Shown: positions 12,317 to 56,596 of the stretch, in pieces
Layout: each line of letters opens with the position of its first letter
Numbering within the stretch: position 1 is the stretch's first letter
Source: Spirochaetes bacterium GWB1_60_80
GTDB lineage: Bacteria > Spirochaetota > Spirochaetia > Treponematales > UBA12059
Assembly: GCA_001829185.1 (NCBI GenBank)
Contig: MIAR01000021.1
Coordinates: 1 to 64,000, forward strand
DNA: 64,000 nucleotides
Reading direction: 5' to 3'
Program-made: the position numbers and the translations under genes
The notes under the pieces: model-generated
The model's database searches: none
Seen by the model: only the letters and a program-made list of their open reading frames with translations
Told to the model about the DNA's origin: nothing

Positions 12317-12449
12317 GCAGGGTGTTGAAAAACGCGGATGCGGCTTTTCAACACTTCAAAAGCCGGTACAATTACGCAGCATAGCGCAAGCTATGCGAGG
12401 AATTGTTAAGGTTGTTGAGAAAGCAACCGGCTTTTTCAACAACCTGCTA
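12315..12449 (+). mobile_element. 135-bp three-hairpin MITE, copy A
   Basis: TA lies at both ends (12315-12316 and 12448-12449). The outer hairpins contain GTGTTGAAAA...TTTTCAACAC and GGTTGTTGAGAAA...TTTTTCAACAACC. The centre is GCATAGC, loop GCAA, GCTATGC between CAATT and GAATTG. It is nearly identical to copies at 28162, 31119, 38727 and 50463. Its right-hand TA is part of the stop codon of the minus-strand yaeQ gene. Confidence 0.9.
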
Positions 12450-13028: not shown

Positions 13029-13083
13029 TAACAGGGTGTTGAAAAACGCGAATGCGGCTTTTCAACACTTCAACAACCTGTCA
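13029..13083. mobile_element. Internally deleted copy of the 135-bp repeat (copy B)
   Basis: It keeps the left hairpin of the family (from TAACAGGGTGTTGAAAAACGC) and then jumps to the last bases of the right end (CAACAACCTG). The junction lies in TTCAA, which occurs on both sides of the missing 80 bp, so deletion between short direct repeats is likely. Its right end, TCA on the plus strand, is the TGA stop of the next minus-strand gene. Confidence 0.75.
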
Positions 13084-28161: not shown

Positions 28162-28296
28162 TAGCAGGTTGTTGAAAAAGCCGGTTGCTTTCTCAACAAC
28201 CTTAACAATTCCTCGCATAGCTTGCGCTATGCTGCGTAATTGTACCGGCTTTTGAAGTGTTGAAAAGCCGCATCCGCGTTTTTCAACACCCTGTTA
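28162..28296 (-). mobile_element. 135-bp three-hairpin MITE, copy C
   Basis: Full-length copy in the opposite orientation to copy A, with TA at 28162-28163 and 28295-28296. It is almost identical to copies A, D, E and F and lies between the decayed gene and the SatP gene. Confidence 0.9.
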
Positions 28297-28310
28297 GGGG
28301 AGCGGCGCCG

Positions 28311-28343
28311 GCCTGATCTTTGTAGCCAGGGGGATACACCCCC
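28311..28343 (-). terminator. 3' hairpin element downstream of satP
   Basis: On the minus strand GGGGG-TGTAT-CCCCC is followed by TGGCTACAAAGATCAGGCC. Nearly the same 33 bases occur after serS at 40031-40062. It begins 16 bases after the satP stop. It may be a 3'-end processing or termination signal; no T-run follows. Confidence 0.5.
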
Positions 28344-31118: not shown

Positions 31119-31253
31119 TAGCAGGTTGTTGAAAAAGCCGGTTGCTTTCTCAACAACCTTAACAATTCCTCGCATAGCTTGCGCTATGCTGCGTAATTGT
31201 ACCGGCTTTTGAAGTGTTGAAAAGCCGCATCCGCGTTTTTCAACACCCTGTTA
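31119..31253 (-). mobile_element. 135-bp three-hairpin MITE, copy D
   Basis: TA at 31119-31120 and 31252-31253. It sits between the divergent ABC exporter and lipoprotein genes. A frame starting inside it (MRGIVKVVEKATGFFNNLL) runs in phase into the ABC ATPase, an artefact of the repeat also seen at other copies. Confidence 0.9.
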
Positions 31254-34059: not shown

Positions 34060-34227
34060 GGGGTCAGTTCCCGGGCGGCGTGGTTCAAGCTGCATCAGTT
34101 GACAAGCGACCGCGCCGCCACCTGGGCAGCCGAGGTCAATGCCAACTGGCGCATCACCTTCTACTTTGAAAAGGGGGATGCATATGTGGTCAATCTGGGC
34201 CAAAATCCAAAGCCCGACAGACTCCTA
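34060..34227 (+). pseudogene. higB: HigB toxin remnant (RelE superfamily), both ends lost
   Basis: The frame reads WFKLHQLTSDRAATWAAEV followed by NANWRITFYFEKGDAYVV, the C-terminal half of a HigB-type RelE-fold mRNase, lying just before a higA gene. No N-terminal half is visible upstream. The usual ending (DVDYEDYH or similar) is replaced from 34195 by the end of the MITE-like element, after which the frame runs into higA. The toxin is therefore dead while its antitoxin looks intact. Confidence 0.75.
34195..34227. mobile_element. Solo right end of the 237-bp MITE-like element
   Basis: Thirty-three bases (CTGGGCCAAAATCC...GACAGACTCCTA) match the right end of the element at 3287-3319 with two mismatches. 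The end TA merges into TAGGAG, which now serves as the ribosome site of higA. No left end is found nearby, so this is a truncated or recombined copy. Confidence 0.7.
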
Positions 34228-38279: not shown

Positions 38280-38362
38280 CCCCGAATCTTGACAGGCCAG
38301 CCAGCCTGATTTACGCTGTTAATATCTATTCGCATGTCTTTCGTGACCCGAAGGAGGATCCC

Positions 38363-39239
38363 ATGAACAGTCGCCATATCCGTTCCGGTACCGCTGGCAT
38401 CTGTGCCAGGCTCCTCTGCCTCCTGCTGGCCGGGTTGGCCGCCGCCGCCCTGTAGGACGAGGATATGGACGTGCTGGAGGCCGAGATTGGCCAGATCATC
38501 GCCGCCATGCAGCGCAAGCCGCTGGAGCTGCGCGTTGGACCGGCCGATTTCCGGCGTTGGCCGACCGCTTTCAACCTGCTTACCATGACGGACGAGAGCG
38601 ACTGTTCTTATCTGTTCATCAATGACGTCACCGAGCAGATCGCCGAAGAGCGCGTTGGCGGCTATACCTATACTACCTATTTCGTCCGCTTTAGCATCCT
38701 GCCCCTGGTGGATCCCAGGCCGGGATTAACAGGTTGTTGAAAAAGCCGGTTGCTTTCTCAACAACCTTAACAATTCCTCGCATAGCTTGCGCTATGCTGC
38801 GTAATTGTACCAGCTTTTGAAGTGTTGAAAAGCCGCATTCGCGTTTTTCAACACCTTGTTAAGCGACCTCGAGATGTGGATGGTGCCGGCCTTGCTCGTC
38901 GACATACCCGACTTTATGGAGAGTCTGCCAATGCGGTGCCTGCAGTCGGTGATGGATGTGGAACGGCTGCGCGCCTTGAACCTGGAGAAAGGCATCTTCA
39001 TGGGCTTGTGCGGCGGCTTGGGCTGGACCTTTGGCGGCATCGGGGTGGCTTGCTTGGCCGGCGGTATAGCCTCGATTGGCAACGATTGGGCGGATATGCT
39101 GTTTGGTACCGCTATCGGCCTGGGCGCCGGCGCCGTGGTGTCGGTGCTGGTCTTTAACCAGGTGAACGACGCCTACAACCGACAGCTGGCCGAGATTTAC
39201 CAGGAGTACGCCGACGCCATGCTGGCCGCAGGCGACTGA
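38363..39239 (+). pseudogene. Exported protein gene broken by an amber codon and a MITE insertion
   Basis: A strong AAGGAGG site precedes ATG 38363. The first 30 codons are a signal peptide (LLCLLLAGLAAAAL) ending in an in-frame TAG at 38453-38455, where CAG would be expected at the cleavage site. The frame then continues (DEDMDVLEAEIGQIIAAM...) to 38728, where MITE copy E begins. Removing 133 bases (38729-38861) joins PRPGL to SDLEMWMVPALLV in the same phase and the protein runs to 39239, with a Gly-rich membrane segment (GLCGGLGWTFGGIGVACLAGG). Family unknown. Either the gene is dead or expression needs suppression. Confidence 0.8.
38727..38861 (-). mobile_element. 135-bp three-hairpin MITE, copy E, inserted inside a gene
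   Basis: TA at 38727-38728 and 38860-38861. It differs from the other copies at a few positions (for example ACCAGC instead of ACCGGC, GCATTCGCG instead of GCATCCGCG). It lies within the exported-protein gene, and exact loss of 133 bases leaves one TTA codon and an open frame. Confidence 0.92.
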
Positions 39240-39355: not shown

Positions 39356-39619
39356 TCACTCATAATGCGACCACATCCGGAGCACGCGCACGATGCCTTG
39401 GTCTTTGAATACCTCATAAACCAGGCGGTGCTGGATGTTGATGCGGCGCGAGTAAGCGCCCGAGAGGTCGCCTACCAGTTTTTCATAGGGTGGCGGGTTC
39501 TGGAAAGGATCAACCGCCAAAAGCTGCAGCAGGGCGGCAGCTTTGGCCTTGAGGCCGGCGGCGGCCAGCTTGGGTGCATCTTTGAGGGCGGCTTTGGTGT
39601 AAACGACCCGCCACATCAC
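39356..39619 (-). CDS. yoeB: YoeB-type toxin (RelE superfamily mRNA interferase)
   Basis: The 87-residue protein matches YoeB: MWRVVYTKAALKDAPKLAAAGL, FQNPPPYEKLVGDLSGAYSRRINIQHRLVYEVF, and the C-terminal RVLRMWSHYE. These include the catalytic Glu/Arg/His residues of the family. It cleaves mRNA at ribosomes when freed from the antitoxin. It overlaps yefM by 4 bp, in the usual antitoxin-toxin order. Confidence 0.93.
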   Translation of the reverse strand: MMWRVVYTKAALKDAPKLAAAGLKAKAAALLQLLAVDPFQNPPPYEKLVGDLSGAYSRRINIQHRLVYEVFKDQGIVRVLRMWSHYE

Positions 39620-39858
39620 CAGTCCAGGTTAGTGGCAGCGTCGGCCAGGGGTTCGTTCATGCCCTCCAGGATGGAGGCGCGCATCCCTGGGATGGAAACC
39701 AGGTACAAGGTTTCCTGCAGGGCATTCCAGTCCGACTCGCCGATCAGGACGGCATTCTGGCGCTTGCCGGAGATGATAACCGGTTCATGCGATTGGTTGG
39801 CCTCATCGATCAGGCGATAGAGATTGGAACGCGCTTTGCTGGCTGTCAACACGGTCAT
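39616..39858 (-). CDS. yefM: YefM-type antitoxin (Phd/YefM family)
   Basis: The 80-residue protein starts MTVLTASKARSNLYRLIDEANQSHEPVIISGKRQNAVLIGESDWNALQETLYL, a full Phd/YefM DNA-binding domain, with a C-terminal tail that wraps the toxin. AGGAGG lies 5 bases before the ATG. It represses its own promoter, where a 16-bp palindrome is visible. Confidence 0.94.
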   Translation of the reverse strand: MTVLTASKARSNLYRLIDEANQSHEPVIISGKRQNAVLIGESDWNALQETLYLVSIPGMRASILEGMNEPLADAATNLDW

Positions 39859-39958: not shown

Positions 39959-40030
39959 CGCTGCGGCCGAGCTCAAATGGGGGGTGGCGCAAAAGCGTTC
40001 GGCCCGCGGCCGCCTGAGGGCGGGCACGGG

Positions 40031-40062
40031 CCGAACCTTTGGAGCCAGGGGGATACACCCCC
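40031..40062 (-). terminator. 3' hairpin element downstream of serS
   Basis: On the minus strand GGGGG-TGTAT-CCCCC starts 12 bases after the serS stop, followed by TGGCTCCAAAGGTTCGGCC. It is the second copy of the element found after satP. The same place relative to two unrelated genes argues for a 3'-end signal. Confidence 0.5.
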
Positions 40063-50462: not shown

Positions 50463-50597
50463 TAGCAGGTTGTTGAAAAAGCCGGTTGCTTTCTCAACAA
50501 CCTTAACAATTCCTCGCATAGCTTGCGCTATGCTGCGTAATTGTACCGGCTTTTGAAGTGTTGAAAAGCCGCATCCGCGTTTTTCAACACCCTGTTA
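50463..50597 (-). mobile_element. 135-bp three-hairpin MITE, copy F
   Basis: TA at 50463-50464 and 50596-50597. It lies between the peptidase gene and the DinG gene, both on the minus strand. Its right-hand TTA is the TAA stop codon of the peptidase gene. Confidence 0.92.
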
Positions 50598-53608: not shown

Positions 53609-56596
53609 ATGTCCAGCTCGGTTAAAGCCATAATCAGTTTCCTCCTCGCTGCCCTTCTGGCGGTGGCTTTCGGCGCTCTGGGCTGGTCGGGTCTGTTCGA
53701 CTATATCGAGACTCGCTTTTTCGACCAACGGGTCCGGCGGCAGGTCGATAGCGGCCTGGATGGCTTGGCCGCGGCGGTCGACGACTGGCACGAAGGCAAC
53801 CTGACCGTCTGGCAGGATCTGTTCAACCAGGATTTCCTGCGGCGAGCCTATCTGCCCAATCAGACCGCCGAAGACATTTTTCAGCGCAGCGACCGCTTTG
53901 GGCGCTTGCAGGCCGAGGTGCCGGGCTTTCTGGGCAGCCGCATCCTGGATCAAGACGGCAGCCGCATCCATTTCAGCACCTTCCCGCAGGATATCGCCCG
54001 CTCCGAGGACCTGCGCCTGGTCTACCGCAATTATGGCGAGCCTGGCGACGAGGCCTTCGCGACGTTAACCCTGTCGGCCAATGACCGGCCGCTGGTGGCG
54101 CTGGCACCCGGCCGGCGGGTGTTCATGTATCTGTTTCCCTTCTTCGACAGCTTTGAAGTCTACCGTGGCGTGGCCATCGCCTATGTGTCGTATAACGGGC
54201 TGCTTGAATACCTGGTCGGCCAAAACTATCTGGCCTTGGGCGACGATGTGCGCCAGGCCGGCAGTGGCTTGGTGTTTGGCGTGCCGGCCTGGGTGGATCA
54301 GGTCTTCCTGGAGCGCATCGCCGGCACCTGGCAGACCGGCAGTAACGCCGAGCCGTTGCCGCTAGGGGCCCTCGAAGATAGCGTCGCCTGGTTGCTGTTT
54401 GCCCGTAATAGTCTGACTGGCCCCCTCGGCCGGGTGGTGCCGGAGAGCCTGTTCGCCTTCCCGACCTACCTGCAGTGGCTGTTACTGGCCAGTTTCTTCA
54501 TTACAGTATATTTACTGATTTTCCTGCTGCTCAACTTGCGGCAAGACCAGTTTGCGGTGCTGTCCGCCCGCATCAAGAGGCTGCAGATCCAGCTATTGCA
54601 GGATTACTTCGCTGTCGGCCTGGAGATGGAACCGGCTCGCTGGCGGCGCGAGCTGGAGGCCAAGCGGGCCGAGGTGCGTGACCGTATCCGTCGCTCTTCC
54701 CGCCGCTTGGCCAAGCGGCGTAGCGCCGAAGTCGACGCGCTGATAAACCGGAACTGGGACGAGATAATCGAGATACTCAGTGGCCGCCCGGCCGCTAGCC
54801 TGGCCTTACCGGCCAATACCGCCATCGATATGAACCGGCTCGAGACCATGCTGCGCGAGCTGCTCAGCAAGGGCTCGTTCATGGTTAATGCCAGCCAGGC
54901 TGCCGCGCCAAGCACTGCCAAGGCGGCCGGCTCGCCGCTTGCCCCCAAACCTAGCCACCCGACGGTCAGCCCGGTAGTCAGCCAAATCGCGGAGCCCGTG
55001 CCGCCGGTCGAATTGGACGAACTCGATGCCGTCGAGGAACTGACCGAGCTCGACGAGTCCGGCGAGATATCCGACGTTGTAGACACTACTCCGCCGGTGG
55101 ACGCCGAACTGGAAACGCTGGAAGAGGTCGAGGAACTTTCGGATGTCGAAGAACTCGAGGAAGTCGAGGAACTCGAAGAGATCGAAGCAGCCGAGGAACT
55201 CGCCGAAGCCGGAGCCCTGGAAGAAGCCGAAGAGCTCGCCGAAGCCGAAACGCTGGAAGAAGTCGAGGAACTCGCCGAGGTCGAAACGCTGGAAGCAGTC
55301 GAAGCGGTAGCCGAGGCTGAAGAGCTTGAGGCCTTCGAAGAGGCCGAGGAGCTTGAAGCGCTCGAAGCGCTGGAAGAAACGGCCATCGAGATAGTGGAGG
55401 GCGATACCGACCAGGCTGCCGAGGTATCGGCCGATGGCTTCGACTTAGGCGCAGCCGCCCTTTCCTTGGCTGGCAGCGTCGACGACGATGTTCCGGTCAT
55501 TCCAGAGAGCTTGGGCCTCGAGCTGGTCGAGGACGATGCCATCGGCGACATCGAATCCTACTTGTACGACGGCGCACCTTCCGGCTTGGCTTCTGACGTG
55601 GAAGAACTGGAAGCGCTCGAAGAGCTTGATGAAGTGGAGTCAAGAGCTGGCTTGCCGGCCGAAGAGGCCTCCAGCGCCGAGGGCGCCACACCAACGAAAG
55701 CCCATAGTGTGGCAGTCAGCGATGCCATCGGCAACGTCGTCGAGCATTTCCCCGGTATGGAACCCGCGCTAGCCGCCGTCAACCCCGACGCAGACGGCGC
55801 GGAGCCGGTCGACCTGGATTCCTTCGGGTACACTGGCAGCGCCCGCTTCGAGTTGTCCAATCCGTTGGACGATGCGGCTGGCGATACCGAGATCGATACC
55901 GCTGAAGGCTTGTGGCGTGATGAAGCCTTTCGCAAACGCATCCGCCAGAAATCACTGGAGCAGGGCAAGGCGCAGCGCGAACTGGACGAGATGCTGGACG
56001 CCGTTGAGTTCGAGCTGGAATTGTCCACTCTCGATTTGGGTGTCCTGGAGAACTACCGCGACGAAGAAGGCTTCCTTGAGTTGGACACGGCCGACTTTCC
56101 GCTGGCCGGTGAACAAGCCGTCTTCAGTATGGCCGAGGAAGCAACACTCGCCGAGGGTGCCGGGGCTGAGGACGAGCTGGAAATCCAGATGCTGTCCGAT
56201 GCCGATCGCGAGCGTCTCGAGGAATTGCAGGTTTTGAGTGACGGCAACGAAGATGCGGCCGCCGAAGACGTGTTGGCCTTGCCAGAATTCGTGCCCCAGT
56301 TTACCCGCCACCAGTTGCCAGCCAATTTTACCCGCTTTTACCAGCAATCGTTGGCCGAACTCGAAGCTGTCGGAGACGAGGAGCTTGGTTCGTTGGAGCA
56401 GGTCGACGCGTTTGACGCCACCGGCACCTCGATGTCGTCGGCTACCACGGCGGCTGGGTCGGTTCCGGTCGCGCCTGGCGGCATCGTCGAGACCGAGGAT
56501 GGGTTATTCATCCTGGATCGATCGGCCGTGGATCCGGCCGTCCCGGTGGACAAGGACCTCTTGTCCCTGGCCCGCGACGTGATCGATAAGCCCTGA
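53609..56596 (+). CDS. Membrane protein with extracytoplasmic sensor-like domain and a long Glu-rich cytoplasmic region
   Basis: I do not recognise the family. The 995-residue product has an N-terminal membrane segment, an extracytoplasmic domain of about 250 residues (double-Cache-like spacing, VFMYLFPFFDSFEVYRGVAIAYVSYN), a second membrane segment (about 290-312), a charged coiled coil (about 315-385), and then about 500 residues of acidic, low-complexity sequence built on units like EELEEVEELEEI. The ATG at 53609 has AAAGGGG upstream. It looks like a scaffold or receptor without a known output domain. Confidence 0.7.
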   Translation: MSSSVKAIISFLLAALLAVAFGALGWSGLFDYIETRFFDQRVRRQVDSGLDGLAAAVDDWHEGNLTVWQDLFNQDFLRRAYLPNQTAEDIFQRSDRFGRLQAEVPGFLGSRILDQDGSRIHFSTFPQDIARSEDLRLVYRNYGEPGDEAFATLTLSANDRPLVALAPGRRVFMYLFPFFDSFEVYRGVAIAYVSYNGLLEYLVGQNYLALGDDVRQAGSGLVFGVPAWVDQVFLERIAGTWQTGSNAEPLPLGALEDSVAWLLFARNSLTGPLGRVVPESLFAFPTYLQWLLLASFFITVYLLIFLLLNLRQDQFAVLSARIKRLQIQLLQDYFAVGLEMEPARWRRELEAKRAEVRDRIRRSSRRLAKRRSAEVDALINRNWDEIIEILSGRPAASLALPANTAIDMNRLETMLRELLSKGSFMVNASQAAAPSTAKAAGSPLAPKPSHPTVSPVVSQIAEPVPPVELDELDAVEELTELDESGEISDVVDTTPPVDAELETLEEVEELSDVEELEEVEELEEIEAAEELAEAGALEEAEELAEAETLEEVEELAEVETLEAVEAVAEAEELEAFEEAEELEALEALEETAIEIVEGDTDQAAEVSADGFDLGAAALSLAGSVDDDVPVIPESLGLELVEDDAIGDIESYLYDGAPSGLASDVEELEALEELDEVESRAGLPAEEASSAEGATPTKAHSVAVSDAIGNVVEHFPGMEPALAAVNPDADGAEPVDLDSFGYTGSARFELSNPLDDAAGDTEIDTAEGLWRDEAFRKRIRQKSLEQGKAQRELDEMLDAVEFELELSTLDLGVLENYRDEEGFLELDTADFPLAGEQAVFSMAEEATLAEGAGAEDELEIQMLSDADRERLEELQVLSDGNEDAAAEDVLALPEFVPQFTRHQLPANFTRFYQQSLAELEAVGDEELGSLEQVDAFDATGTSMSSATTAAGSVPVAPGGIVETEDGLFILDRSAVDPAVPVDKDLLSLARDVIDKP

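Follow-up and report, generated by a model that had tools for sequence, protein, structure and literature searches.

A hairpin-tipped miniature element inside an orphan gene of a spirochaete, and its relatives across the order

The interrupted gene and its neighborhood

The window (the whole stretch of 64,000 nucleotides that was analysed) contains an orphan gene that starts with an ATG at 38363, preceded by an AAGGAGG at 38351-38357 as read from the sequence. The segment that follows the start codon is signal-peptide-like, and at its end, in codon 31, the frame meets an in-frame TAG, which the earlier note had already pointed out and which constitutes a second lesion of the gene. Beyond this codon, the frame stays open up to a short repeat (Table 1). 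Deleting 133 bases, so that 38728 is joined to 38862, produces the junction GGA-TTA-AGC, where PRPGL is followed in phase by SDLEMW, and the rejoined frame runs over 744 nt in frame 0 to the TGA at 39237-39239. The claim that excision of the repeat restores the frame is thus confirmed, and the coding signal matches in both halves. Scored with a codon-usage model that was built from 134 long ORFs of the same genome, the 5' half reaches +27.0 in the joined frame (-43.1 and -32.9 in the other forward frames) and the 3' half +44.8 (-69.6 and -48.2).

Table 1. Features of the interrupted gene and of the MITE copies in the window.
Feature	Positions	Strand	Basis
5' part of the interrupted orphan gene	38363..38728	+	open after codon 31; sole positive forward frame
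In-frame TAG, codon 31, end of signal-peptide-like segment	38453..38455	+	sequence reading
Left 4-bp target duplication, TTAA	38726..38729	+	flank comparison
MITE core, 129 bp, CAGGTTGTTGAAAAAG...TTTTTCAACACCTTG, three substitutions relative to the consensus	38730..38858	+	
Hairpin 1: left terminal repeat folded onto its inner arm	38731..38767	+	
Hairpin 2: central, outside the terminal repeats, most covariation	38770..38808	+	
Hairpin 3: right terminal repeat folded onto its inner arm	38822..38854	+	
Right 4-bp target duplication, TTAA	38859..38862	+	flank comparison
3' part of the orphan gene, with a glycine-rich hydrophobic segment and the TGA stop	38863..39239	+	sole positive forward frame
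Sister MITE copy, CTAG/CTAG	12318..12446	-	
Shortened MITE derivative: right hairpin and outer left end, interior deleted	13029..13081	+	
Sister MITE copy, TTAG/TTAG	28165..28293	+	
Sister MITE copy, TTAG/TTAG	31122..31250	+	
Sister MITE copy, TTAG/TTAG	50466..50594	+	

The intact gene may have encoded the continuous exported protein that the same note proposed, which has neither a homolog nor a Pfam domain in the searches made and would, with the TAG, come from a gene with two lesions. A query carrying one extra leucine at the junction found no homolog in 58 relatives, only the self-match at E <= 0.001 in 294 genomes of the order, and no Pfam domain above the cut-off. No homolog was found on plasmids with the exact junction as query, nor on viral contigs with the 3' half alone. 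In the seven relatives tested, serS is the sole part of the 64-kb stretch that finds a match, MITE copies aside. The comparison with relatives suggested in the earlier note accordingly showed no empty site. A YoeB/ParE-like toxin and a Phd/YefM antitoxin are encoded just 3' of the interrupted gene, at 39356-39858 on the minus strand.

Copies and target duplications in the host genome

The host assembly comprises 3.6 Mb in 59 contigs and is 96% complete. The 21-base core taken from the repeat has 166 genome matches at up to two mismatches, which puts the number of copies at about 166, and the reversed control has none. Copy statistics rest on the surroundings of about 100 copies, which were picked in the order of listing and do not form a random sample. 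Among the 101 copies with readable ends, 98 are exactly 129 bp long and 96 have identical 4-mers on both flanks, while identity over five bases occurs in none. The duplicated words are CTAG (36), TTAG (20), CTAA (20), TTAA (19), and GTAG (1), so that nearly all conform to YTAR. The remaining five copies carry two different YTAR words as flanks, explicable by recombination between copies. Both ends of the element hold the terminal inverted repeat CAGG[T/G]TGTTGAAAAA.

The earlier note was right in calling the repeat a MITE: it measures 129 bp (<600 bp), has no coding capacity, and combines its many copies with inverted ends and target duplications. The TA duplication proposed in the same place has to be replaced, since the flanks of the 101 copies reveal a duplicated target of 4 bp, TTAA in the gene, of the YTAR type. 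These flank statistics rule out a MITE of the IS630/mariner type, with its 2-bp TA duplication, and the 4-bp YTAR duplication indicates an IS5-type transposase instead. The entry of the repeat into the gene is supported as well; its direction is deduced from the coding signal that both halves carry in the joined frame and from the target duplications around some 100 sister copies.

The burst of copies is recent, since 75 of the 98 full-length copies are identical to the consensus. The copy inside the gene differs from this consensus at three positions, each of the substitutions being found in some other copies too. Genes are avoided: a predicted gene harbours 20 of the 101 copies, compared with 602 of 995 control YTAR sites in the same stretches (p = 2e-15), and an insertion that interrupts a gene is therefore the minority case. 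There is also a weak orientation bias relative to transcription, the plus strand of the MITE being the transcribed sense in 24 and opposed in 9 of 33 same-direction gene pairs of this genome (p = 0.014). A search of plasmids for the MITE found no copy.

Some further observations concern repeats. Three MITE copies about 420 bp apart with shared flanks (L069:1453-2432) apparently represent a tandem duplication with the MITE as the joint. Another repeat, about 230 bp long and bounded by the inverted ends GGAGTCTGTCGGGC, is apparently flanked by TA and often abuts the CTAG of a MITE copy (L071, about 1589-1817; L092, about 1209-1437); nine of its ends were counted in the 376 kb of sequence examined, one of them near 34222 (-) of the window. 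A 40-bp repeat ending in GGGGGATACACCCCC occurs at 28304-28343 and 40023-40062, the two copies being 85% identical and one of them directly adjoining a MITE. Finally, a run of a 9-base repeat at 55102-55375 codes for a Glu-rich, low-complexity protein stretch.

Three hairpins across the spirochaete order

With DNA parameters, the MITE folds as three separate local hairpins (z = -6.9). Copies in other genera are about 70-79% identical to it, measure 128-131 bp, and show the same three hairpins, with YTAR duplications wherever these are readable. Covariation was assessed in an alignment of 21 such elements from other genera (A1), in which 26 of 46 pairs are changed on both sides (shuffled mean 13.2), with all three hairpins affected, and the covariation score reaches 0.255 against 0.086 after shuffling. 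Standard pairs fill 89.0% of the cells, compared with 78.3% in shuffled alignments and at most 46% when the structure is slid; related sequences can beat such shuffles without any structure, while the slid control keeps the relatedness and is far exceeded too, and the tested structure is somewhat favoured by its derivation from the same sequences. A search of Rfam with the window and the MITEs of six test loci gave no match to the MITE, and a known RNA family was discarded as an identity, the sole Rfam match being an unrelated TPP riboswitch.

A covariance model built from the same 21 elements was run on 294 genomes of the spirochaete order and hit 90 of them at E <= 0.001, covering 47 of the 83 genera; in a phylum sample of 393 genomes all matches at E <= 1e-6 fall within this order. 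Many of the distant members carry other terminal repeats on shared interior sequence. When they are sorted by hand from their first 16 bases, three classes appear besides the type found here (class A). Class B ends (GAGCCAATTTCAAAAG) go with 4-bp duplications of unconstrained sequence in 11 of 15 cases, class C ends (GTGTCTGTCCACAAAG) with duplications of the form NNTA in 7 of 8, and class D ends (GGGGCTGTCCG) with no clear target duplication. A profile of the class A interior matches class B and D members in register (1.1e-6 for L287 of class B and 2e-5 for L281 of class D), with none of 1260 shuffled controls better than 2. Class C members are matched by a profile of the B and D interiors with values from 4e-13 to 7e-8, and the best members of class A with values of up to 7e-13, in register in both cases; the best shuffle reaches 0.31. 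On this evidence, which comes from sequence alone, the end classes are shown to have in common a core and not just a shape.

The end types are also similar to one another, following roughly xxGGCTGTxxxAAAAG, and this resemblance makes it more probable that they diverged within a single transposase superfamily than that the element was captured by unrelated transposases. A tentative reading, to which less than even weight is given, is that one ancient core of three covarying hairpins, about 120-150 bp long, persists throughout the order, with terminal repeats that are altered to suit different transposases. Of its end types, no fewer than three would make 4-bp duplications (YTAR, unconstrained, and NNTA), in addition to a fourth type without a defined duplication. 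As the core is conserved and the ends are not, the core may have a function of its own.

Hairpin-tipped MITEs with like ends and YTAR duplications are found outside the spirochaetes as well. They include multi-hairpin elements of 160-163 bp in gammaproteobacteria such as Sedimenticola, with 11 pairs changed on both sides among seven sequences, and one 130-bp hairpin-tipped MITE in a deltaproteobacterium. Solo hairpins of 32-37 bp (CAGG..CCTG) lie between identical YTAR words in gammaproteobacteria and one spirochaete (L188, L217, L236, L237), and are possibly the smallest mobile units of the hairpin-tipped kind.

Mobilisation and persistence of the element

A scan of viral contigs for the end sequence led to an element with the sequence CTAG-CAGGGTGTTGAAAAAG, whose gene encodes an IS5-family transposase (NF033581, 266 bits; DUF772 and DDE_Tnp_1). 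Its plasmid relatives end in identical or similar sequences and are flanked by 4-bp duplications, namely CTAG/CTAG in S. meliloti and Methylomonas, TTAG/TTAG in S. medicae, and CTAA/CTAA in Rhodobacter, the ends of the last being less exact than those of the Sinorhizobium and Methylomonas elements. The IS5-family elements that share the ends of the MITE include L135, L136, and L139. YTAR is the known duplication motif of IS5 (PMC10359306). The IS5 family, in its NF033581 or ISRme1-like group, thus resembles the MITE in having termini like CAGG[G/C]TGTTGAAAAA and a 4-bp YTAR duplication; in contrast, the MITE carries no gene, and its host genome lacks the transposase. No DDE_Tnp_1, DUF772, or NF033581-like gene was found in the 96% complete host assembly, and the NF033581 type is also missing from nearly all genomes of the host's family. 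Multi-copy insertion sequences are often lost at contig ends, so that absence from an assembly is not proof. We infer that such a transposase mobilised the MITE, and that it existed here until recently and has since been lost or has escaped assembly. Within the order, two elements of about 1.6 kb (L346 and L353), assigned to the IS1182 type from their DUF772 transposase and length, have ends (G/C)AGACTGTGTCAAAAGTC and matching 4-bp flanks; these ends resemble those of class B by similarity only and are not identical to them. A search for inverted ends around 30 DUF772 loci found class-B-like ends at just these two.

The repeat is very probably a non-autonomous DNA transposon moved in trans by a transposase of the IS5/IS1182 superfamily into the gene at TTAA. 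The transposase would bind the 15-16 bp terminal repeats (CAGGNTGTTGAAAAA), mobilise the MITE, and join its ends to the staggered break made at a YTAR site, and repair of the 4-base gaps would leave TTAA on either side and split the gene. Pairing within the hairpins would be kept mainly at the DNA level, each end being a palindrome that carries the terminal repeat twice, and the palindromic ends would either be copied anew through template switching or be required when the DNA is single-stranded.

It is very improbable that the two halves are separate genes with the repeat as a structured intergenic spacer. A possible TTG start for the 3' half exists at 38856, inside the repeat, and 80% of the sister copies are intergenic; however, exact removal of the repeat and one duplicate puts both halves in one frame, the coding signal follows this frame on either side, and outside the repeat the 3' half has no upstream ATG with a ribosome site. 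Even less credence goes to a single-strand HUH transposase that would use the hairpins as recognition sites, as RAYT does with REP/REPIN sequences. The strong, covarying hairpins would fit such a mechanism, REPINs being hairpin-forming miniature mobile DNAs of bacteria (PMC3116915), but the exact 4-bp duplications of 96 of the 101 copies, together with the long terminal inverted repeats, are the mark of a DDE transposase and already contradict it. HUH elements are not known to make target duplications, and an element with 4-bp duplications departs from the REPIN/RAYT pattern of HUH-moved hairpins without them.

As for the persistence of the hairpins, selection on a transcript, through an RNA function or the protection of host mRNA, is an unlikely though not negligible part of the explanation. 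Such selection would agree with the compensatory changes in all three hairpins and with an interior that stays conserved while the ends diverge. When folded as RNA, the minus strand is the more stable one in 20 of 21 and 52 of 63 elements, and in class A at the genome level A-C mismatches, which are wobbles on the other strand, outnumber G-T ones by 23 to 5. This asymmetry nevertheless fades to 80 against 62 order-wide (p = 0.15, not significant), for which reason RNA-level selection is not claimed from it. The lack of an Rfam match also speaks against a role of the transcript, as does the orientation bias, by which the plus strand, opposite to the better-folding one, is the usual transcribed sense. 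The balance leans towards maintenance of the hairpins at the DNA level, although this is not proven. Through template switching within a palindrome, a change in one arm can be transferred to its partner. Entropy is lower in the outer than in the inner arm at both ends (0.40 vs 0.52 on the left, 0.06 vs 0.19 on the right), and the outer arm of each palindromic end would, if maintenance acts on DNA, be the transposase site.

Among described elements, RUP and BOX of the pneumococcus come close in size scale, copy number, and folding: they are highly folded MITEs on the 100-bp scale with 110-125 copies, thought to be moved in trans by an insertion sequence (PMC3049150). Their terminal repeats pair with each other (PMC3049150), whereas each end of the spirochaete MITE folds on itself with a third hairpin between them, and, unlike them, the family spans an order. 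ERIC, Correia, and QMITE elements are likewise high-copy and mostly intergenic (PMC10969869, PMC5896051). QMITE1 duplicates 2-3 nt and QMITE2 7-9 nt, in contrast to the 4 bp found here, and the cited descriptions of these elements contain no covarying three-hairpin chassis with several end types. The insertion of a MITE in a gene is itself ordinary (PMC10969869). In the open-licence literature searched, no MITE family came to light that spans an order and combines a covarying multi-hairpin core with several types of ends. As far as searched, the family is previously undescribed, and its interest lies in this order-wide, structured character.

Bacterial MITE families are usually regarded as short-lived derivatives of one insertion sequence in one species or genus. 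An element without genes that can be traced through 47 genera, with its stems compensated and its ends diverged, would be a non-autonomous element that outlives its transposases. The recent burst in this genome and the older copies elsewhere make up a comparative set suited to two questions: do hairpin-tipped ends aid transposition, and can the maintenance of palindromes in DNA mimic the covariation of RNA?
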